Positions 24,173-50,423 of a stretch of 64,000 nt of DNA are shown here, one piece after another. The DNA lies in the IMG/VR virus record IMGVR_UViG_3300022752_000030, positions 1-64,000 of that record, one strand, 5' to 3'. The notes under the pieces were generated by a model. That model was not told where the DNA came from. It worked only from the letters and a program-made list of their open reading frames with translations, and ran no database searches. The position numbers and the translations under genes are program-made. The DNA comes from a virus. Every line of letters begins with the position of its first letter. The first letter of the stretch is position 1.

Positions 24173-25170
24173 TCTTCCGACTTCTTAAATGTTAATGGTT
24201 TATGACCTAATGTTTTGGCCATTGCGTGCAGGTGTTCATCATGATCCAAATCGACATGACTTTTATCTGCATGTTTGACCATAAATTGTATTGTACGTTT
24301 TTTTGGATCGGATGTTTTTTGTCTGACTCTCCATTGGCCTTTACCTGTCAATTCAGGCAATCCGTGGCCAGTCTTATCTTTTTCACCAACTCTATATGTT
24401 CCGTGTTTACCGACTTGTAGGACATCAACATGATGATCCTTTAAGTAAGCATTTGCTGGTTTCAAATCATCATGTTCAAAGTTTACATTTTTAGCCAAAG
24501 GACCACCAGGTACCAATCCAGTAGGTTTATGGTGTTCGTTCATGTGGTCTATGATACCTTTTGACTCGATGTGTGCAGCATAACCTGGTCTGTTTTTTCT
24601 ATTTTCTTCAGGAATGTGCCAACCACCCTTCTTTTCATCATAAGCAATAGTTAATTGACCAAAAGCAGCAGTTTTTCCTGCTTTTGTTTCGCCCTGTAAC
24701 TCACCTTCGTTGTGTACTTCGCCTTTATGTTTCGTATTTAATTTTTTATTAACCAAATTAAAGTCGTTACCACTTGTAAATCCAGCAGCTTCACCGTGCA
24801 TCAAACCATGGTCTTTTAATCTTTTTACGAAATTTTGTTCATATTCAAAACCTTTATTAGATTTTTTTTCTCCTGGTTTTAAAATTTTCGAAACAGGTAT
24901 TACGTGTTTTCTTCTCGTAACATCATCCGTAGCATGAACGTAATATTTTCCATCAATCAATTCTGTCTTGTGTAATTTTAATTTTGATCCGGATGGAACA
25001 TCTTCGTGATCTTTACCCATAGTGTGAGTATAATCTTTTGATCCTAGATGCGGCATTACATATTTTCCCAAATGTCTTTCTTTGTCGATACCTGCACCTT
25101 TAATGAAACCCACACCTTCAGCTTCATTAATCATTTCACATTCATTTAAGTGTTGTAAAAATGTTTTCAT
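24169..25170 (-). CDS. PD-(D/E)XK-like protein with capsid-targeting-like N-terminus
   Basis: 333 residues starting MKTFLQHLNE. The middle reads KGFEYEQNFVKRLKDHG, then SGNDFNLV, then LQGETKAG: the E, D and ExK spacing of a PD-(D/E)XK nuclease core. The same GFEYE, D and GxExK series occurs in the gene at 32675-33424, so the two are probably paralogues. His-rich C-terminal half. Overlaps both neighbours by four bases. Nuclease activity is predicted, not shown. Confidence 0.6.
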   Translation of the reverse strand: MKTFLQHLNECEMINEAEGVGFIKGAGIDKERHLGKYVMPHLGSKDYTHTMGKDHEDVPSGSKLKLHKTELIDGKYYVHATDDVTRRKHVIPVSKILKPGEKKSNKGFEYEQNFVKRLKDHGLMHGEAAGFTSGNDFNLVNKKLNTKHKGEVHNEGELQGETKAGKTAAFGQLTIAYDEKKGGWHIPEENRKNRPGYAAHIESKGIIDHMNEHHKPTGLVPGGPLAKNVNFEHDDLKPANAYLKDHHVDVLQVGKHGTYRVGEKDKTGHGLPELTGKGQWRVRQKTSDPKKRTIQFMVKHADKSHVDLDHDEHLHAMAKTLGHKPLTFKKSEE

Positions 25171-26339
25171 TTTCTAACCTTTAATAAATTTGCTCTTGCA
25201 AATTCTTGGCGATCAACTAATTTAGTAGGTTCACCTGCATGGTTAATAACAAAGCCTTCTGGACCAGTTCTTTTGCCATCTATATGATGTTCTAGTCCAC
25301 CTTCATGTTGATTTAGTGTGTGTACCAAGACATTTTTAGCTTGTTGTAAATGATGGTGCATCTTCAGGAGATTTTCATAATGATCTTTGTTTTTCTCAAT
25401 ATGACTTAGATGACTATTTGCTTCCGATTGTTTTCTAGCTTGTCCTGCCGGCGTTTTTAATTTTGAAGCTGATTTATTGTATTGATTTTGTATGTGTTTT
25501 TTCAGTCCTTCAGCAGAAGGAACTTCACCAGTTCTTACTGTATGGTTAATGTAAGTCGAAAGGTGTCCAGCTTCACCTCGATGTGGCTCAGTTGATTTGT
25601 ACATTGTGCCTTTATGCTCATCATGTATTTTTCTTGCGGCTGACATGTGGTCATTGAATTTTTCTTGATCCGATTCTGAATAATGTACGTTTTTCGTATC
25701 GTGTTCGGCTGATTTGTGCCAAACATCAGGATGCTGATAAAATTTATGCATGTCGGGATGAGGATCGGCACCCATCGTACTCAGGTTTTTTCCGTGATAC
25801 TGGGTGTGTACAATTACACCAAGTTTTGCTCTCCTTATTTTATCAGCCTCATCACCTTTTGCGGTATATGTGATTGTATTTGGAGTAAATGATACACCTT
25901 TTTTTGTTTCTTTTTTGTCACCATCAGAAAACATTAGGTCACCTTGGTAAACTCCTGACTTCGGTGCAATCTTTTTGAGATGATTTAGTCCTGCGTGTAA
26001 TTTGTCCATCAAACCGGGTGCGTGTCCGTGGTTTTTAACTATATCTGCATGTGTATAGTTTATTTTTGGATTTACATTGAAAGCTGATTTTGATGCAACA
26101 AAGAATTTACCGTTTTCTGGATTATGACCAAAAACAACGGCAGGAGATCCATCATATTTCATCGTCAAATGAGAACTGTTGCCACCTGACTTAATATGTT
26201 CGTGAGCTTGATTTAACGCATTGTAAGTGTGTTCAAAACCTTTTGATCCGTGAAGTAAAGGCCGGTCTTCAGCATGATGTATATGCTTAAGTTTTTCACC
26301 TTCAGTTTCTTCAATCAAAAAATTTAAAAAAGATTTCAT
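25167..26339 (-). CDS. ligase-like nucleotidyltransferase (DUF6267-type) with capsid-targeting-like N-terminus
   Basis: 390 residues from the ATG at 26339 (AGAGGTAAG upstream); begins MKSFLNFLIE. Motifs of covalent nucleotidyltransferases are visible in order: LTMKYDGSPAVVF (motif I KxDG, K61), VYQGDLMF (motif III-like), IVHTQYH, EGFVI (motif IV, E361) and KLVDRQEF (motif V, K373). This suggests an RNA/DNA ligase-like or capping-type fold; I recall the family as DUF6267. The His-rich helical middle is an insertion. A TATAAATA late promoter lies 43 bp upstream. Confidence 0.65.
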   Translation of the reverse strand: MKSFLNFLIEETEGEKLKHIHHAEDRPLLHGSKGFEHTYNALNQAHEHIKSGGNSSHLTMKYDGSPAVVFGHNPENGKFFVASKSAFNVNPKINYTHADIVKNHGHAPGLMDKLHAGLNHLKKIAPKSGVYQGDLMFSDGDKKETKKGVSFTPNTITYTAKGDEADKIRRAKLGVIVHTQYHGKNLSTMGADPHPDMHKFYQHPDVWHKSAEHDTKNVHYSESDQEKFNDHMSAARKIHDEHKGTMYKSTEPHRGEAGHLSTYINHTVRTGEVPSAEGLKKHIQNQYNKSASKLKTPAGQARKQSEANSHLSHIEKNKDHYENLLKMHHHLQQAKNVLVHTLNQHEGGLEHHIDGKRTGPEGFVINHAGEPTKLVDRQEFARANLLKVRK

Positions 26340-26381
26340 CTTACCTCTTAGAATACAACACACTTTGGTTGTCCATGAAGT

Positions 26382-26389
26382 TATTTATA
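26382..26389 (-). promoter_or_regulatory. late promoter TATAAATA
   Basis: Perfect 8/8 match to the T4 late core on the minus strand (ATTATAAATAAC), in a non-coding gap 43 bp before the ligase-like gene. A second near-match, TATAAATC, lies about 18 bp further upstream. Confidence 0.75.
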
Positions 26390-42351: not shown

Positions 42352-42425
42352 TGGATGCGGGTCCAAGAGTCGAACAAGGAACTGAGGATTATGAGTCCTC
42401 TGTGATACCGTTTCACCAACCCGCG
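42352..42425 (-). tRNA. tRNA-Met(CAT), initiator-like C1xA72 pair and weak T stem
   Basis: Folding with the encoded CCA gives acceptor CGCGGGT/ACCCGCA, whose first pair is a C1xA72 mismatch as in bacterial initiator tRNA. D stem GTGA/TCAC, anticodon stem GAGGA/TCCTC with loop CTCATAA. The T stem CCTTG/CTTGG has two central U-U mismatches. It may be a divergent initiator-like tRNA or one that is decaying. Confidence 0.7.
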
Positions 42426-42433
42426 ATAAAAAG

Positions 42434-42511
42434 TGGTCTCCGATGAGAGATTCGAACTCCCGTTATTCTTCATCCCAAATGAAGTGCCATACCAGGCTAG
42501 GCGAATCGGAG
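42434..42511 (-). tRNA. tRNA-Pro(TGG)
   Basis: Acceptor CTCCGAT/ATCGGAG, anticodon loop TTTGGGA, T arm GGGAG-TTCGAAT-CTCTC, CCA encoded. Five bases separate its 5' end from the stop of the 53-aa gene. Confidence 0.9.
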
Positions 42512-42515
42512 ATTA

Positions 42516-42677
42516 TTATCTACCTCTACTTGATCTTCTAGTTGGTTTATTTACATTAACCTGAGAAGTAAATTTAGTTTGTTGTTTAGTTGCAATTTTT
42601 GAATTATTATTCGGTAATATTTTACCGGATTCACGAGCTAAATTTATAAAAGGATTTTTTGATTTTTTTTCATCCAT
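42516..42677 (-). CDS. small basic protein inside the tRNA cluster, 53 aa
   Basis: Starts MDEKKSKNPFINLARESG at 42677 after a strong AGGAGAT site, and ends in a basic Arg/Ser tail (TRRSSRGR). Located between tRNA-Gly and tRNA-Pro. No domain recognised; a small nucleic-acid-binding protein is possible. The strong SD and clean spacing support it as a gene. Confidence 0.6.
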   Translation of the reverse strand: MDEKKSKNPFINLARESGKILPNNNSKIATKQQTKFTSQVNVNKPTRRSSRGR

Positions 42678-42695
42678 TATATTATCTCCTAAATT

Positions 42696-42769
42696 TGGAG
42701 CGGGATGACAGAATCGAACTGTCAACGGAAGATTGGAAATCTACAGTTTTACCATTAAACTAATCCCGC
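42696..42769 (-). tRNA. tRNA-Gly(TCC)
   Basis: Acceptor GCGGGAT/ATCCCGC, anticodon loop TTTCCAA, T arm GACAG-TTCGATT-CTGTC, CCA encoded. One U-U mismatch in the anticodon stem. Confidence 0.88.
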
Positions 42770-42775
42770 ATTAAC

Positions 42776-42850
42776 TGGTGCCGGATGTCTGATTTGAACA
42801 GACGACCTACCGCTTACAAGGCGGTTGCTCTACCCCTGAGCTAAACCGGC
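42776..42850 (-). tRNA. tRNA-Thr(TGT)
   Basis: Acceptor GCCGGTT/ATCCGGC, anticodon stem ACCGC/GCGGT with loop CTTGTAA, T loop TTCAAAT, CCA encoded. Good cloverleaf. Confidence 0.92.
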
Positions 42851-42853
42851 ATT

Positions 42854-42927
42854 TGGAGCGGGTACCGAGAATCGAACTCGGAAATAATCCTTGGCAAGGA
42901 TTTAGGTTACCTTTACATCATACCCGC
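42854..42927 (-). tRNA. tRNA-Gly(GCC)
   Basis: Acceptor GCGGGTA/TACCCGC, anticodon stem AATCC/GGATT with loop TTGCCAA, T arm CCGAG-TTCGATT-CTCGG, CCA encoded. A consensus promoter lies just upstream. Confidence 0.92.
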
Positions 42928-42934
42928 ACTTGTT

Positions 42935-42963
42935 ATTATATAGTATTTTTTTTACTATGTCAA
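42935..42963 (-). promoter_or_regulatory. perfect-consensus sigma70 promoter inside the tRNA cluster
   Basis: Minus strand TTGACA (42958-42963), 17 bp spacer with an A8 tract, TATAAT (42935-42940). The start point would fall just before tRNA-Gly(GCC), so this promoter drives Gly, Thr, Gly, Pro and Met tRNAs and the 53-aa gene. Confidence 0.9.
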
Positions 42964-42971
42964 CATTTTTT

Positions 42972-43057
42972 TGGTGCGAGAGGGGGGACTTGAACCCCCA
43001 ATCCCTTACGGGCGATTGATTTTAAGTCAATTGCGTATGCCTTTCCGCCACTCTCGC
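42972..43057 (-). tRNA. tRNA-Leu(TAA)
   Basis: Acceptor GCGAGAG/CTCTCGC, anticodon stem ATTGA/TCAAT with loop CTTAAAA, long variable arm (CGCCCGTAAGGGAT region), T arm GGGGG-TTCAAGT-CCCCC, CCA encoded. Confidence 0.92.
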
Positions 43058-43062
43058 TATAT

Positions 43063-43137
43063 TGGTCCGGTGACCAGGAATCGAACCTGGATTAATAGCT
43101 TAGAAGGCTACTGTTCTATCCATTGAACTATCACCAG
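43063..43137 (-). tRNA. tRNA-Arg(TCT)
   Basis: Acceptor CTGGTGA/TCACCGG, anticodon loop CTTCTAA, T arm CCAGG-TTCGATT-CCTGG, CCA encoded. It reads the AGA codon, favoured in AT-rich genomes. Its first base directly follows the CCA of tRNA-Leu(TAG). Confidence 0.92.
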
Positions 43138-43214
43138 TGGTGCCTCAGGAGAGACTCGAACTCTCAAAATTTTGCTTCTAAGGCAAACACGTATACCAAT
43201 TCCGTCACCGAGGC
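43138..43214 (-). tRNA. tRNA-Leu(TAG) with a shortened variable arm
   Basis: Acceptor GCCTCGG/CTGAGGC, Leu-type D arm (ACGGAATTGGTATACGT), anticodon stem TTTGC/GCAAA with loop CTTAGAA, T arm GAGAG-TTCGAGT-CTCTC, CCA encoded. The variable region is only five bases (ATTTT) instead of the long arm normal for tRNA-Leu. The CCA abuts tRNA-Arg without a spacer. Confidence 0.85.
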
Positions 43215-43220
43215 TTTATT

Positions 43221-43296
43221 TGGTGCTTTGTGACGGGTTCGAACCGCCGACCTACGCCTTGTAAGGGCGCCGCTCTACCAACTGAGCTAACAAAGC
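43221..43296 (-). tRNA. tRNA-Val(TAC)
   Basis: Acceptor GCTTTGT/ACAAAGC, anticodon stem GCGCC/GGCGT with loop CTTACAA, T arm GGCGG-TTCGAAC-CCGTC, CCA encoded. Five bases after the stop of the autotransporter gene. Confidence 0.92.
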
Positions 43297-43301
43297 AATA
43301 A

Positions 43302-45326
43302 TCAAAACATTTTCTTAAATACAGCAAACAATGATGATTTAACATCAGAACCAGCATTGTCTGATTGTAACACCAATCCTGTTTGCAATCTAGTCAATTT
43401 ATTAAAATTTTGAGTATATGCCAAACTTGTTGCGTACTGTCTATAACTATTTGAAAGTTCAATTTTTTCTTTTGAATTAATCGAGGTTACAGTTGCACCA
43501 TCTTCTGTTACATTTGAACTTGTATATCCGGTCACACCAGAAATTGTTGCACTACCACTAACAATTGCAGGAAGTTCAGTAACTTGGAAATTTAGATAAT
43601 CTTTTTCGTTAAAGATTTCTTTTTTCTGTAATCCCAGAGTCCAAGTTTGTGTAACAATATCACTCACATCACTAATCAACGAATCGGAAACAGTATTTGA
43701 TTTAGTAAATCCATAAGCCAAACTTCCATATACATTTACATTTTGATTCATATTTTTTGACAATTCCAAACCAGTCCAGTTTGTTGACGAATCACCTAAT
43801 GCAAATGCGCCGTTGCCTTTTGTTCCTAAGATTGATCCAAATTCTTTGGCTGTTCCAACTTCAACAGATAAACGATATTGATCATTTAGTTGATATCCAA
43901 ATTTCATTCCAGTAACATTATCACTCGAATAAACAGTATTAATTAGATTTTGTGTACCCAAATCGACATAGTTAATTGTCGAATTGCTAAGTGTAGAAAA
44001 TGCAGAAATTGGATTGTAATTCTGCATTGATGTTGTCATTCCGTTTGTCATATTGACAGTAAAATTTCTACCAATAGAATCAATAACTTGTGTGTTCTGT
44101 AATACAGAACTATTCACAAAACTTTGTTTGGTAATAATACCACCAGAAAGTCCACTTGATGAGAGTGACACCGGTCCAGCAGCAATTTGTGTCGTACTTG
44201 TGTTTGTAATTTTTGCAAGCGTGAGAGCACCAATTGGTTTTGTTGCAGCATCAAGATTCATTAAACCGTTACCGTAAACTTCATCAACTCCAGGTTTACC
44301 TAAATCCGTTGCTGTTTTAAGTAGAACTTGTACAATTTGTTCTGGTTTTAATGTTGGCCATGCTTGTTTGATTACAGCAATGCCACCTGATACAAAAGCA
44401 GCAGAAAGGCTTGTACCCTGATCAATCTTTAAATTAGTACCTGCATTTGCATTTGCGGCCCAAATTAAACCACCGCCAGGAGCAACTAAAAAATAATCTT
44501 TAATTTGAACAGTATCTTTACAAACATTGTTTACAAAATTCTGACAAATATTTCCCGCACGATTACTGAAACTAGCAATATTGTTATTGTTATCGACTGC
44601 ACCAACTATAACAGCGCGTCCACCAAGTAACAAATTTCCTTTCGTGTCTGTTTTCACTGCCAGGTTTGCAGGATTTGTTGGAACTGGATTTCCATCGTTT
44701 CCAGCTGCCATTACTACAATAGAACCTTTTGATGTTGCGTATTGCAATGAGGACAAAAATTGTGTTGATGAATAAGAATCTGCCGCACTTGTAATTTTTA
44801 CAAATGATCCATTATTTAAATTTTTATAATTTTTAGCAAATTCATTTTGACTCATCGATGAGCCCAAACTTAGATTGATAACATCTGCTTTATTGTCAGC
44901 GTTCCACCTAATGCCGTTGTTCACGTCAGTAACAAAAAGGAAACCAGCAAAGCCTCCTGCATAAATCATTGCATTTGCATTATAAGCAACACCCATAATT
45001 CCTGTGCCATCTTTTGCACCAGCAGCAAGAGAAATCATTTCAGTTCCATGACCACCGTTCACATCAATCATGTTTGTGTAATACGGACTTTTGGAAAGAA
45101 TCACATTTTTTAAATCTTTATTTTTAAGATCGGCACCAGTATCAACAAAACCAATGCGAGAATTTAGACCTGTATATCCACGCGACCAAGCAACCTTGGC
45201 ACCAATAGATGTAAGTGCAATATCGTTTGCTGCGGTTTCTGTGGGAGAAACGACTGCTGATAGACACACAGAGTTAATTGCCATCAATGATGCAATTGTA
45301 ATTAAATTTCTTTTAAAGAATTTCAT
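43302..45326 (-). CDS. autotransporter subtilisin-like serine protease (S8)
   Basis: 674 residues from the ATG at 45326. Signal peptide (MKFFKRNLITIASLMAINS). Subtilase triad in order: D62 (GFVDTGAD), H93 (GGHGTEM), oxyanion N210 (AAGNDG) and S306 (GTSLSAA). The last 200 residues alternate polar and aromatic strands and end in F (AVFKKMF), as in autotransporter beta-barrels. So the product is a protease displayed on the host outer membrane. Such a gene is rare in phages; it stands between two tRNA clusters and has no close SD, signs of a cargo gene. Confidence 0.85.
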   Translation of the reverse strand: MKFFKRNLITIASLMAINSVCLSAVVSPTETAANDIALTSIGAKVAWSRGYTGLNSRIGFVDTGADLKNKDLKNVILSKSPYYTNMIDVNGGHGTEMISLAAGAKDGTGIMGVAYNANAMIYAGGFAGFLFVTDVNNGIRWNADNKADVINLSLGSSMSQNEFAKNYKNLNNGSFVKITSAADSYSSTQFLSSLQYATSKGSIVVMAAGNDGNPVPTNPANLAVKTDTKGNLLLGGRAVIVGAVDNNNNIASFSNRAGNICQNFVNNVCKDTVQIKDYFLVAPGGGLIWAANANAGTNLKIDQGTSLSAAFVSGGIAVIKQAWPTLKPEQIVQVLLKTATDLGKPGVDEVYGNGLMNLDAATKPIGALTLAKITNTSTTQIAAGPVSLSSSGLSGGIITKQSFVNSSVLQNTQVIDSIGRNFTVNMTNGMTTSMQNYNPISAFSTLSNSTINYVDLGTQNLINTVYSSDNVTGMKFGYQLNDQYRLSVEVGTAKEFGSILGTKGNGAFALGDSSTNWTGLELSKNMNQNVNVYGSLAYGFTKSNTVSDSLISDVSDIVTQTWTLGLQKKEIFNEKDYLNFQVTELPAIVSGSATISGVTGYTSSNVTEDGATVTSINSKEKIELSNSYRQYATSLAYTQNFNKLTRLQTGLVLQSDNAGSDVKSSLFAVFKKMF

Positions 45327-45349
45327 AATCAACTTTCATAATAAAAAAA

Positions 45350-45826
45350 TCAGGCAGCCATTGTCAATACATGCTTCAATCTGTCTGCTGCATATGTAGC
45401 AGCAAAAGCTTTTGGTTTTACCATTGGTGTAACATTACATGTTCCTTTGATATAACCAATTGCCTGTTGCACAACACACGATGATCCGTATTTTTCATTG
45501 GGATTTATATCCAAATGAACTTCAACGTGTCTGTCTTCCAAAACATCAGATAATGTTTGAAATAATTCTGCGACTTTAAAAACTTCATTCATTAAACGCA
45601 TAGATGGTTTATTTTTCTTTTGATCAAAGTCTCTCTCTCGAATAACTTCACCAAAAATTTTACAACCGTGTCGGCCATCAATATGAACAACAACCGCTAT
45701 TGTATAATCAGCATACCAGACATCATCAATAATAAATCTTTCCGAATCCGCACCAAGATATATCTTAGTTTGTGGACTTTGCGATGAAATAAATTTTTTC
45801 ACTTCATCGATGTCTATTTTTTTCAT
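45350..45826 (-). CDS. DUF458-type RNase H-like protein
   Basis: 158 residues. TKIYLGADSERFIIDDVWYADYTIAVVV and CKIFGEVIRERDF, then VHLDINPNEKYGSS with an Asp, follow the RNase H-like fold of DUF458 (YkuK family). The D in GADSE and D in HLDIN are likely metal ligands. May be a nuclease; unproven. Overlaps the upstream gene by four bases. Confidence 0.65.
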   Translation of the reverse strand: MKKIDIDEVKKFISSQSPQTKIYLGADSERFIIDDVWYADYTIAVVVHIDGRHGCKIFGEVIRERDFDQKKNKPSMRLMNEVFKVAELFQTLSDVLEDRHVEVHLDINPNEKYGSSCVVQQAIGYIKGTCNVTPMVKPKAFAATYAADRLKHVLTMAA

Positions 45827-46338
45827 ACATTATTTTTATTGCTGATTGCTTCCCTTAGCGCTTTTTCGATTAATTGATTGAATGTGATATCCAGTTTGTG
45901 TGCTAGTTTCATATATTCAAAAAGGTCGTCATCTGAAAATTCAATTTCCATTTGAATACGAGTATCGTATTTTTCATTAGAAATAATCGCTCGAGCTTTC
46001 TCCAACCAATCATGTTCGACAGTCAGATCGATATATTTAACTTCATCCCATGCAGTATCGTCCAGACCTTTAGCATCCTTTTCACGAGCATAAGCATCAA
46101 CATATTCAGGATGAATCAGGCGATATGAGCGATCATGGGTATAATCACAAACATCTACCTCATAGACGATTTGTGTGTTGGTATCAAATACAATATTAGC
46201 ACTCCAACCACCTTCACCGTGGAGTCCATTCCATGAGGTTAAGTTATATGCATTTTCACCATAACAGTTCCATTGAAATTTATCGCCTTCTGTAATACGA
46301 TAATTAATTAATTCCATGAATGTTTTCAACTGTATCAT
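45823..46338 (-). CDS. conserved phage hypothetical protein
   Basis: 171 residues. Starts MIQLKTFMELINYRITEGDKF; the middle SWNGLHGEGGWSANIVFD and YEVDVCDYTHDRSYRLIHP are beta-rich, and the C-terminus EIEFSDDDLFEYMKLAHKLD is a helical domain resembling a ribbon-helix or degron-type tail. Not recognised. The SD is AGGAGT upstream of the ATG. Confidence 0.6.
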   Translation of the reverse strand: MIQLKTFMELINYRITEGDKFQWNCYGENAYNLTSWNGLHGEGGWSANIVFDTNTQIVYEVDVCDYTHDRSYRLIHPEYVDAYAREKDAKGLDDTAWDEVKYIDLTVEHDWLEKARAIISNEKYDTRIQMEIEFSDDDLFEYMKLAHKLDITFNQLIEKALREAISNKNNV

Positions 46339-46362
46339 AATATACTCCTAATAAAATTTTAT

Positions 46363-46437
46363 TGGTACCGAGTAGTGGGATTGAACCACTGACCAACGCC
46401 TTATCAAGACGCTGCTCTACCGCTGAGCTAACTCGGT
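46363..46437 (-). tRNA. tRNA-Ile(GAT)
   Basis: Acceptor ACCGAGT/ACTCGGT, anticodon stem GCGTC/GGCGT with loop TTGATAA, T arm AGTGG-TTCAATC-CCACT, CCA encoded. Confidence 0.92.
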
Positions 46438-46442
46438 AAAAG

Positions 46443-46518
46443 TGGTGGAGGATGACGGGATCGAACCGACGACCCCCTGCTTGCAAAGCAGGTGCTCTCC
46501 CAGCTGAGCTAATCCCCC
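46443..46518 (-). tRNA. tRNA-Ala(TGC)
   Basis: Acceptor GGGGGAT/ATCCTCC, anticodon stem CCTGC/GCAGG with loop TTTGCAA, T arm GTCGG-TTCGATC-CCGTC, CCA encoded. Confidence 0.92.
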
Positions 46519-46524
46519 ATTATT

Positions 46525-46650
46525 TTACCTACCTTGACCTCTGTATTTTTTAACTTTTTTTCTTGTTTTATTTAAAGTACTTGTTTTACTTCCGTTCTGA
46601 CAAGTCTTTTTGTGTACTGCTGTGTGTCCGGTATTTGTTTTTACGCTCAC
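46525..46650 (-). CDS. small basic protein in the tRNA cluster, 41 aa (GTG start)
   Basis: Reads MSVKTNTGHTAVHKKTCQNG and ends KKVKKYRGQGR. A strong AAGGAG stands six bases before the GTG. Lys/Arg-rich with a terminal YRGQGR, a pattern I associate with very small proteins of aquatic T4-like phages. Located between tRNA-Asn and tRNA-Ala. Its small size limits confidence, but SD, clean reading frame and basic ending support it. Confidence 0.65.
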   Translation of the reverse strand: MSVKTNTGHTAVHKKTCQNGSKTSTLNKTRKKVKKYRGQGR

Positions 46651-46668
46651 TTCAACTCCTTATAAAAT

Positions 46669-46744
46669 TGGCTCCTCGACCTGGGCTCGAACCAGGGACC
46701 TACGGATTAACAGTCCGGTGCTCTACCAACTGAGCTATCGAGGA
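46669..46744 (-). tRNA. tRNA-Asn(GTT)
   Basis: Acceptor TCCTCGA/TCGAGGA, anticodon stem CCGGA/TCCGT with loop CTGTTAA, T arm CCTGG-TTCGAGC-CCAGG, discriminator G, CCA encoded. Confidence 0.92.
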
Positions 46745-46778
46745 ATAATCATTATTCTATCTATATATGTTTATATTT

Positions 46779-46853
46779 TGGCGGTCCCAAGGAGAATCGA
46801 ACTCCTAACATCGGCGTGACAAGCCGAAATTATAACCATTTAACTATGGGACC
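46779..46853 (-). tRNA. tRNA-Asp(GTC)
   Basis: Acceptor GGTCCCA/TGGGACC, anticodon stem TCGGC/GCCGA with loop TTGTCAC, T arm AGGAG-TTCGATT-CTCCT, discriminator G, CCA encoded. Confidence 0.92.
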
Positions 46854-46858
46854 AAAAA

Positions 46859-46943
46859 TGGTGGAGAAGATTGGGATCGAACCAATTGTGACAAAAGTCG
46901 GAAGATTTACAGTCTCCTGCCATACCATTACGGCGGCTTCTCC
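46859..46943 (-). tRNA. tRNA-Tyr(GTA)
   Basis: Acceptor GGAGAAG/CTTCTCC, anticodon stem GGAGA/TCTTC with loop CTGTAAA, long variable arm, T arm ATTGG-TTCGATC-CCAAT, CCA encoded. Confidence 0.92.
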
Positions 46944-46948
46944 AAATA

Positions 46949-47025
<77 letters not shown>

Positions 47026-47031
47026 ATACGT

Positions 47032-47110
47032 TACCATATAAAAACACATTGGATTGCCTACTGCTAAAATGTACCGGACTCGGTTTTTTGCAATGTGTTT
47101 TTATATGGTA
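47032..47110 (-). repeat. 20-bp perfect inverted repeat forming a 79-nt hairpin between tRNAs
   Basis: Arms at 47032-47051 and 47091-47110 are exact reverse complements over 20 bp. The 39-nt loop holds a smaller hairpin ACCG-AGTC-CGGT. One arm overlaps the 3' terminal CCA region of tRNA-Glu. The segment is tRNA-sized but cannot fold as a cloverleaf. Confidence 0.85.
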
Positions 47111-47181
47111 CACCGTAGCGGATTCGAACCGCTGTGAATGCCGTGAAAGGGCACTATCCTAGGCCTCTAGATGAACGGTGC
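47106..47181 (-). tRNA. tRNA-Glu(TTC)
   Basis: Acceptor GCACCGT/ACGGTGT with a first G-T pair, anticodon stem GTGCC/GGCAT with loop CTTTCAC, T arm AGCGG-TTCGAAT-CCGCT, CCA encoded; the CCA is the start of the long inverted repeat. Confidence 0.9.
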
Positions 47182-47238
47182 ATAAAATACAATCCATTTT
47201 TTAATGAACAATGATTGATTTCTCAATCGATAGTACGT

Positions 47239-47266
47239 ATTGTACACGAATTAAAATGATTGTCAA
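47239..47266 (-). promoter_or_regulatory. sigma70 promoter driving the second tRNA cluster
   Basis: Minus strand -35 TTGACA (47261-47266), 16 bp, -10 TACAAT (47239-47244), upstream of tRNA-Glu. A 21-bp element identical to the one at 2375-2395 lies 4 bp upstream of the -35. Confidence 0.82.
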
Positions 47267-47270
47267 CACC

Positions 47271-47291
47271 TGTGTTGTTTTTTTACAACTT
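47271..47291 (-). repeat. 21-bp promoter-upstream element, copy 2
   Basis: Exact copy of the element at 2375-2395 (T7 tract within GTTGT/ACAAC), at the same place relative to a -35 box, about 45 kb away. Confidence 0.65.
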
Positions 47292-47297
47292 GTTTTT

Positions 47298-47387
47298 TGG
47301 CGGTGCGACTGAGATTCGAACTCAGAAGCCGGTGTTAACCGACCGAAGGATTAGCAATCCTCTCCAATACCGTTATGGGACCGCACC
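47298..47387 (-). tRNA. tRNA-Ser(GCT)
   Basis: Acceptor GGTGCGG/TCGCACC, anticodon stem GAGGA/TCCTT with loop TTGCTAA, long variable arm (GTCGGTTAACACCGGC), T arm CTGAG-TTCGAAT-CTCAG, discriminator G, CCA encoded. It lies at the 3' end of a truncated acyltransferase gene. Confidence 0.92.
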
Positions 47388-49358: not shown

Positions 49359-49436
49359 TTATTTACCTTTGTTTTGGAATTTTTCAGGATTATTTAACTG
49401 ATCCCATTCCTCATCGGATACAGGCCACCAGTTCAT
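49359..49436 (-). CDS. micro-protein downstream of hsp20, 25 aa
   Basis: Reads MNWWPVSDEEWDQLNNPEKF. Its ATG overlaps the hsp20 TGA (ATGA), so translation would be coupled, and it ends just before the terminator. Three Trp in 11 residues. Very short, so possibly chance; coupling is the only support. Confidence 0.4.
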   Translation of the reverse strand: MNWWPVSDEEWDQLNNPEKFQNKGK

Positions 49437-49879
49437 TTTTCTTCCTTAATGGTAATTTTTTTGATAGCGTCTTGAGCTTTGATCATGTTCTCCAGCCAAA
49501 CCTTGAGCATACCATTTGCCAATTCTGCATCTTTAATTTCAACTTTATCAGCCAAAGTAAAAGTGCGTTCAAAAGAACGATTTGCAATGCCTTTGTATAG
49601 GTAATCACTTTCAGTATCATCTTTTGTTGCACCTTTGATGATAAGTTTATTACCCTCTAAAGTCATTTCAATATCAGATTTTGCAAATCCAGCAACAGCC
49701 ATTTCGATAACATATTTGTTATCTTTGACTTGTTTGATATTGTATGGAGGATACCCAGCGACTTTTGCAGATTGTTCTGCAATTTTTTTAAGTGTGTCTA
49801 GGGTTTGATCGAAGCCAACCGTGAATGGTTGAAATTGACCGAAAAGGTCTTTACCGAATACATCTTTCATGTATGTCAT
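49433..49879 (-). CDS. Hsp20/alpha-crystallin small heat shock protein
   Basis: 148 residues. N-terminal QFQPFTVGFDQTL and the alpha-crystallin domain from NIKQVKDNKYVIEMAVAGF through LANGMLKVWLEN are IbpA-like. Small heat shock proteins are frequent in aquatic T4-like phages and may help virion assembly. AAGGAG precedes the ATG. A structured leader with a TATAAATA promoter and its own terminator is upstream, and a terminator/promoter element is downstream. Confidence 0.9.
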   Translation of the reverse strand: MTYMKDVFGKDLFGQFQPFTVGFDQTLDTLKKIAEQSAKVAGYPPYNIKQVKDNKYVIEMAVAGFAKSDIEMTLEGNKLIIKGATKDDTESDYLYKGIANRSFERTFTLADKVEIKDAELANGMLKVWLENMIKAQDAIKKITIKEEK

Positions 49880-49911
49880 TTGTTTCTCCTTAAAAAAGCG
49901 AAAAAGTTTTT

Positions 49912-49938
49912 AAAAAATCCAACCTAAAAAGCGTTGGA
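49912..49938 (-). terminator. intrinsic terminator ahead of hsp20
   Basis: Minus-strand stem TCCAAC/GTTGGA (49918-49923 with 49933-49938) with a 9-nt loop, followed by T6. It lies between a late promoter and the hsp20 start, so it either ends a small RNA or works as an attenuator. Confidence 0.75.
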
Positions 49939-49995
49939 CCGAGTAATTTATTACTAGCCTTAACCTCGGCACTGCTAGTTCCCATCCCTGAGAAT
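49912..49995 (-). ncRNA. candidate structured small RNA or cis-regulatory leader
   Basis: From a start about 6 nt after TATAAATA (50001-50008) to the T6 tract is about 84 nt. It can form an H-type pseudoknot: stem ACTAGC/GCTAGT (49974-49979 with 49953-49958), whose loop CCGAG (49965-49969) pairs with CTCGG (49939-49943), and then the terminator. It matches no riboswitch class I know. It contains no plausible coding sequence. Confidence 0.55.
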
Positions 49996-50000
49996 ATAAT

Positions 50001-50008
50001 TATTTATA
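50001..50008 (-). promoter_or_regulatory. late promoter TATAAATA upstream of hsp20 leader
   Basis: Perfect 8/8 T4 late core followed by ATTATATTC on the minus strand, just after the regA stop codon. It would transcribe the structured leader and hsp20. Confidence 0.7.
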
Positions 50009-50009
50009 A

Positions 50010-50423
50010 TTATTCAGTATCTTTTTGTGGTTTTTTACCGATATTATATTTCGGAATTAATTGCCACTCAGACTTTTCTTTATGTGAAATAATTTTAATT
50101 TGAGACAAGAAAATAGGAACTGGATTTTCCGTTTGTTCTTTTCTCACAATTTCAATTAAACCCCAATCTTGTAATAAGTTTACAATAGCATTTCTTCTTG
50201 ATAAATCATTTTCAGAAATATCTGTTGGTTTTCCGTCTAATGCAAACAATTCTTTAAAGTGTACAATATAATATTGTCCTCTTTTGTGTAAAATATGGCA
50301 TGACTGATACAACATCTTTTCTTTTTTAGAAGCGACACCAATTCGTGTTAACGTTTCACGAACTTTTAAAAAATCATCTTTTTCTTTAAGTTTTACCTCA
50401 ACTAAGTCTTTAATTTCTAGCAT
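50010..50423 (-). CDS. regA: RegA translational repressor
   Basis: 137 residues (T4 RegA 122). RETLTRIGVASKKEKMLYQSCHILHKRGQYYIVHFKE and LLQDWGLIEIV, KSEWQLIPKYNIG align with T4 RegA by eye over most of its length. It binds early mRNAs at their start sites and blocks translation, setting the early-to-late switch. Overlaps gene 62 by 14 bases, the classic 44-62-regA order. Confidence 0.95.
   Translation of the reverse strand: MLEIKDLVEVKLKEKDDFLKVRETLTRIGVASKKEKMLYQSCHILHKRGQYYIVHFKELFALDGKPTDISENDLSRRNAIVNLLQDWGLIEIVRKEQTENPVPIFLSQIKIISHKEKSEWQLIPKYNIGKKPQKDTE

Follow-up and report, generated by a model that had tools for sequence, protein, structure and literature searches.

The leader of a lake phage hsp20 gene is predicted to mask its own ribosome-binding site by folding, in the manner of bacterial RNA thermometers

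The stretch of lake phage DNA analyzed here (IMG/VR record IMGVR_UViG_3300022752_000030, positions 1 to 64,000; "the window") encodes the small heat-shock protein Hsp20 on its minus strand, where a T4-type late promoter and a leader about 116 nt long separate the stop codon of regA from hsp20. The features of the locus, all on the minus strand, are as follows, listed from upstream to downstream:

50010-50423, minus strand: regA (stop codon 50010-50012), translational repressor, upstream of the leader (PF01818, E 1.4e-46; phrog_242)
50001-50008, minus strand: T4-type late promoter TATAAATA, between the regA stop codon and the leader
49979-49994, minus strand: hairpin P1, UUCUC-AGGGAU-GGGAA, 5' of the pseudoknot; its GGGATGGGAA is conserved in freshwater phages
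49939-49979, minus strand: H-type pseudoknot, with compensatory changes in both stems
49974-49979 / 49953-49958, minus strand: stem 1 of the pseudoknot, ACTAGC / GCTAGT
49965-49969 / 49939-49943, minus strand: stem 2 of the pseudoknot, CCGAG / CTCGG
49918-49938, or 49916-49940 if extended, minus strand: hairpin I, TCCAAC-N9-GTTGGA, in the predicted MFE fold of the window leader
49912-49917, minus strand: U6 run (T6) after hairpin I, a possible weak terminator, not conserved
49883-49906, minus strand: hairpin II, ROSE-like, from the MFE fold, the consensus fold of relatives and covariance model R1
49896-49906, minus strand: anti-Shine-Dalgarno strand CUUUUUCGCUU, with motif UUCGCU (49897-49902) and bulged G (49899)
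49883-49891, minus strand: Shine-Dalgarno (SD) strand AAGGAGAAA, with SD AAGGAG (49886-49891)
49433-49879, minus strand: hsp20 (ATG 49877-49879), small heat-shock (alpha-crystallin) protein (PF00011, E 2e-17; phrog_432, E 8.8e-39)

The initial annotation of this locus, made from the sequence alone, had proposed a perfect late promoter followed by 84 nt of structured, non-coding RNA. Indeed, TATAAATA lies directly 3' of the regA stop codon. By likeness to T4 late promoters, transcription of the leader would start (+1) at A49995, from which it is 84 nt to T49912, as proposed. The promoter sequence occurs only 2 times in the 64-kb window, against 7.8 times in shuffles, and this scarcity fits a sequence that is reserved for true late promoters; its only other copy (26382-26389, minus strand) is located just upstream of the open reading frame (ORF) 25167-26363. 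In four related loci (L013, L019, L027, L031), a σ70-type promoter, TTGACA-N17-TATAAT, overlaps the late promoter upstream of hsp20, an arrangement that suggests dual early and late expression of the gene. Elsewhere in the window (42352-47387, minus strand), 17 tRNA genes form two clusters on either side of a subtilisin-like autotransporter ORF (43302-45332).

The most informative part of the leader lies 3' of the annotated stretch, where the order CUUUUUCGCUU-UUUU-AAGGAGAAA forms a hairpin (hairpin II) that had been overlooked. MFE folding of the full leader at both 15 and 37°C yields P1, stem 1, hairpin I and hairpin II; in the latter, UUCGCUU is base-paired to the SD with one G bulged out, and the AUG is left free. 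At 25°C, the SD is predicted to be unpaired with a probability of 0.05, the fourth lowest value among the 29 SD-bearing ORFs of the window (median 0.48), and masking of the ribosome site in the window leader is a well-supported prediction. ROSE-like elements are defined by imperfect pairing between a U(U/C)GCU motif and the SD of a small-heat-shock gene, together with a free AUG, a bulged G and a stable upstream hairpin (PMC3669281, PMC11342760). The window leader combines the motif UUCGCU, a predicted bulged-G pairing with the SD and an upstream stable hairpin, and it belongs, by position, to a small heat-shock gene. That the gap before hsp20 encodes an mRNA leader which would cover its own ribosome-binding site by folding, much as bacterial RNA thermometers do, is well supported by the sequence.

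This arrangement is widespread in front of phage hsp20 genes. Leaders were collected from 18 phage isolates, ranging over marine cyanophages, the pelagiphage HTVC008M, the methylophage Melnitz-2, the freshwater phage S-CRM01 and the Agrobacterium jumbo phage Atu_ph07, and in 16 of them hairpin I is followed by U(U/C)GCU and then a GGAG Shine-Dalgarno. The Pseudomonas jumbo phage PAC2 carries the near form UUGCG; S-TIM54, which is devoid of the motif, has CCAC-G-CUU opposite AAGGUGG, so that both sides of an otherwise invariant pair are changed and the bulged G is kept. A consensus fold of 31 phage leaders (RNAalifold) consists of hairpins I and II, and the G that it bulges is the one bulged in the window leader; 90.9% of its cells are paired, and its covariation score exceeds that of all 500 shuffles. 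In hairpin I, which in isolates typically has the form N5-GCC-loop-GGG-N5, 5/5 consensus pairs are changed on both sides among these 31 leaders. The pairs of hairpin II are nearly invariant because the SD is constrained, and the covariation seen there comes from U.G changes and a single isolate.

A covariance model built from the same 31 leaders, with the window excluded (model R1), finds the window leader with 42.9 bits (E 3.3e-9; next best match, E 0.33). Its top match is an hsp20 leader or operon leader in 16/18 phage records of up to 490 kb, many of which had themselves supplied sequences to the model. Outside these positions, R1 gives one weak match (E 0.05) in a record in which no hsp20 was found (G002) and a weak second match in HTVC008M; it has no match in S-TIM54. 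In a strict motif test, 67 of 81 hsp20 genes are preceded by the arrangement, as are only 3 of 819 other SD-bearing ORFs; because hsp20 leaders have common ancestors, these counts are not independent trials. Among the 14 hsp20 genes that fail the test, several have the leader before a small ORF that precedes hsp20. Such an ORF of roughly 75-100 aa (MLQNINSAIDTFQ...), for which no Pfam match was found, stands between leader and hsp20 in L090, L098, L101, L149, L223 and L250. The comparisons as a whole document a two-hairpin layout that would mask the SD, and its conservation across phage hsp20 genes, along with the covariation of hairpin I and, as described below, of the pseudoknot.

Hairpin I and the T6 run behind it had been annotated as a terminator. 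Both are present, and some termination after hairpin I is possible in the window. However, a terminator scan gave no site at hairpin I, whose loop of 9 exceeds the rule's limit of 8, and a run of at least five T after the hairpin is found in 0/17 isolate leaders and in 44/105 distinct leaders. An intrinsic terminator would combine a GC-rich hairpin with a conserved U-run, whereas here the hairpin is kept and the U-run is not. Since none of the 17 isolate leaders has the U-run, the "terminator" is more plausibly the first of the leader's two hairpins, hairpin I.

The 5'-terminal hairpin P1 was likewise missed initially. Its 5' arm is variable among freshwater phages (UCUC, UCCC), yet complementarity is kept, and in 29/56 relatives with a promoter near P1 the hairpin starts 5-6 nt past the promoter (about +1/+2). 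Across 12 long virus records, GGGATGGGAA has 0-2 copies per record, and sites that also have the hairpin's 5' arm occur at most once. In one group of phages P1 is placed in the hsp20 leader; in another, it follows the stop codon of a structural gene, be it the major capsid gene or a different one, directly before an ordinary terminator. Record G001, for instance, has P1 behind the capsid gene, and its hsp20 leader is free of it. Because it is found once at most per record, at locations that vary between phages, P1 can be regarded as a separate, movable, essentially single-copy element. The GGGATGGGAA hairpin (window 49979-49988, minus strand) is also present in L082, L085, L108, L127, L148 and L200, among others. 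A bacterial origin of P1 was considered and rejected: P1 plus a T-run gives one match in 84,980 bacterial genomes, and this match resembles coding sequence. The AGGGAU loop of P1, which resembles the CsrA SELEX core, was considered as a possible CsrA-binding site.

The distribution of P1 bears on the small RNA that the initial annotation had offered as one option, in which the segment from the late promoter to U6 would be a stable, trans-acting RNA of 84 nt (P1, pseudoknot, terminator) and hsp20 would be transcribed by read-through only. An element that occurs no more than once per long record, either in the hsp20 leader or in the 3' UTR of structural genes before a plain terminator, would suit such an RNA, as would the U6 after hairpin I in the window. 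Nevertheless, the small RNA has little chance of being correct: the U-run that it needs is missing in most leaders, isolates included, the terminator scan is negative, and hairpin I is itself conserved, at a constant place before the anti-SD strand, also in phages without any P1 or pseudoknot.

Both stems of the H-type pseudoknot lie where they had been annotated. Composition alone proves little, and by this measure the structure is unremarkable: 15% of the window's 121-nt stretches can form some H-type pseudoknot of 6+5 pairs, and the MFE z-score of the site is only -2.0; stems this GC-rich are found in only 1/1065 minus-strand stretches. Relatives were taken from the hsp20 gaps of IMG/VR freshwater phages and from loci found through the motif. 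A search of IMG/VR with the exact pseudoknot pattern gave no match, and a looser pattern led to two relatives; BLASTN of the 61-nt pseudoknot and of short P1-terminator queries against phage isolates returned chance or terminator matches only. Where the window has ACUAGC/GCUAGU in stem 1, L009 has CCAGC/GCUGG; stem 2, CCGAG/CUCGG in the window, is GAGAGG/CCUCUC in L215 and GAGGGG/CCCCUC in L216. Among seven pseudoknot sequences, 91.6% of pair cells are standard and the covariation score is reached by 0/500 shuffles, and if the partner strand is shifted by 1-3 columns, both pairing and covariation are lost. The same covariation result was obtained for a second, shorter pseudoknot subgroup (ACUAGG-CGGCAUC-CUAGU type). 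Compensatory change in both stems had been named as the test of this structure, and it is because of this covariation in relatives, not because of composition, that the pseudoknot can be considered a selected RNA structure.

The pseudoknot is an optional 5' module: in L002-L004, the closest relatives by Hsp20 (93% protein identity), the promoter leads directly to hairpin I, without P1 and pseudoknot. Between P1/pseudoknot and hairpin I, many relatives carry another structured module, about 100 nt long, that has an invariant ACCUUAGG and a conserved GUAA-C-AG. It occurs upstream of hsp20 in L009, L010, L013, L018, L090, L223, L227 and L233, is absent from the window, and matched neither manA nor any other Rfam family.

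A riboswitch, the other option raised at first, would use P1 and pseudoknot as a ligand-binding aptamer and hairpins I and II as expression platform. The compact pseudoknot, its compensatory changes and the varied linker lengths are in line with this idea, and a proposed riboswitch is known from a similar place: in cyanophage P-SSM2 (L217:901-1098), a manA RNA (RF01745, 181.6 bits) lies directly behind regA, which indicates that structured RNAs recur at this position in these phages. The manA RNA is reported to precede ibpA chaperone genes as well as other genes (PMC2864571). Against an aptamer speak the strong variation of the loops and stems of the pseudoknot, the lack of a conserved binding core other than GGGAUGGGAA, which is also present without the pseudoknot, and the loss of the entire P1 and pseudoknot module in the closest hsp20 relatives. 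Moreover, Rfam has no match at the site at the gathering threshold, and with the limit relaxed to E 5 the matches are at chance level (freshwater-2, KRAS_3UTR and U6atac, all rejected); manA RNA was found neither in the window nor in the freshwater relatives scanned. Overall, a riboswitch seems very improbable. A peptide starting at the AUG within GGGAUGGGAA was also considered and dropped, as its reading frames are not conserved on inspection.

The third option, a thermosensor-type element, has turned out to be the best supported, for a different reason than the structures first noticed, namely the anti-SD/SD hairpin downstream of them. Probably, the 5' leader controls the translation of late-expressed Hsp20, with the SD being freed most likely by warming or heat stress. 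Transcription would begin at the late promoter behind regA and produce an RNA with P1, H-type pseudoknot, hairpin I and hairpin II in order from its 5' end. As long as hairpin II is closed, with UUCGCUU on AAGGAG around the bulged G, ribosomes could not load; once it opens, most likely via warming or heat stress, Hsp20 would be made. P1 and the pseudoknot might protect the RNA at its 5' end or keep the weak hairpin II from being misfolded, and guarding the 5' end while keeping the leader folded is their most likely role. A more elaborate arrangement, in which a ROSE-like SD switch common to phages at large has been joined, in freshwater T4-like phages, to the movable P1 and pseudoknot, and the pseudoknot senses or recruits a second signal that gates or stabilizes the heat switch, appears rather doubtful.

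Temperature as the opening signal is inferred. In RNAfold predictions, the SD of the window reaches an unpaired probability of 0.14 at 50°C; as hairpin II is mostly closed even then, a temperature response is without support from simple thermodynamics. Stronger opening of the SD with heat is predicted in some relatives only, and for Melnitz-2, S-CRM01, ACG-2014f and L069 masking is not predicted in the leader fragments folded. Weak predicted melting would agree with the main rival explanation, according to which the SD is masked but opened by a protein, e.g., RegA, encoded next door, or another RNA-binding protein of phage or host, or by a helicase, with Hsp20 production timed to the late phase in either case. 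The regA gene lies directly upstream of the leader in the window and in many relatives. Furthermore, hsp20 belongs to the core genes of cyanophages, and its product has been proposed to assist in capsid maturation (PMC3037559), a need for Hsp20 that exists without heat. However, the masking strand carries the exact ROSE motif U(U/C)GCU together with a destabilizing bulged G, the mark of bacterial thermometers for the same gene family, and cyanophages such as P-RSM1, P-SSM4 and S-SM1 keep the leader though the gene upstream of their hsp20 is not regA. Overall, a protein or helicase as the opener is unlikely.

In the open-access literature, no report of an RNA thermometer or ROSE element of a phage hsp20 gene was found; the papers covered on the small heat-shock proteins and the genomes of cyanophages are silent about thermometers, and no description of hsp20 regulation in marine T4-like cyanophages was found. 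Should these leaders act as thermometers, the phages, whose hosts are very abundant aquatic bacteria, would sense host temperature or heat stress through their own RNA, obtaining the chaperone on demand, and phage production would be tied to water temperature.

Among known RNA families, manA RNA differs from the window leader in sequence and in its much larger fold (about 190 nt). Freshwater-2 RNA (RF02980) weakly aligns with hairpin I, the SD and the ATG of the window, at a score (18.6 bits, E 0.73; cut-off 49.9) that is treated as chance. The best-fitting Rfam family is ROSE_3 (RF02523), which matches nothing in the window up to E 5 but falls exactly on the hsp20 leaders of Melnitz-2, Atu_ph07 and S-SM2, with 34.1, 28.0 and 24.9 bits, all below the curated cut-off of 43. 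None of these phage hsp20 leaders is annotated by Rfam; judged by motif and predicted fold, they extend ROSE-like elements beyond what current Rfam models recognize. A close counterpart is the ROSE-like thermometer of Pseudomonas ibpA, a two-hairpin form of 61-62 nt (PMC3669281). The window leader differs from it in being phage-borne, in its T4-type late promoter instead of a heat-shock promoter, and in a longer, A/U-rich hairpin II with an added 5' hairpin and pseudoknot. Common to both are a small-heat-shock gene, a short leader, a stable hairpin I, and an SD located in a 3' hairpin with U(U/C)GCU, a bulged G and a start codon that is predicted to be unpaired.
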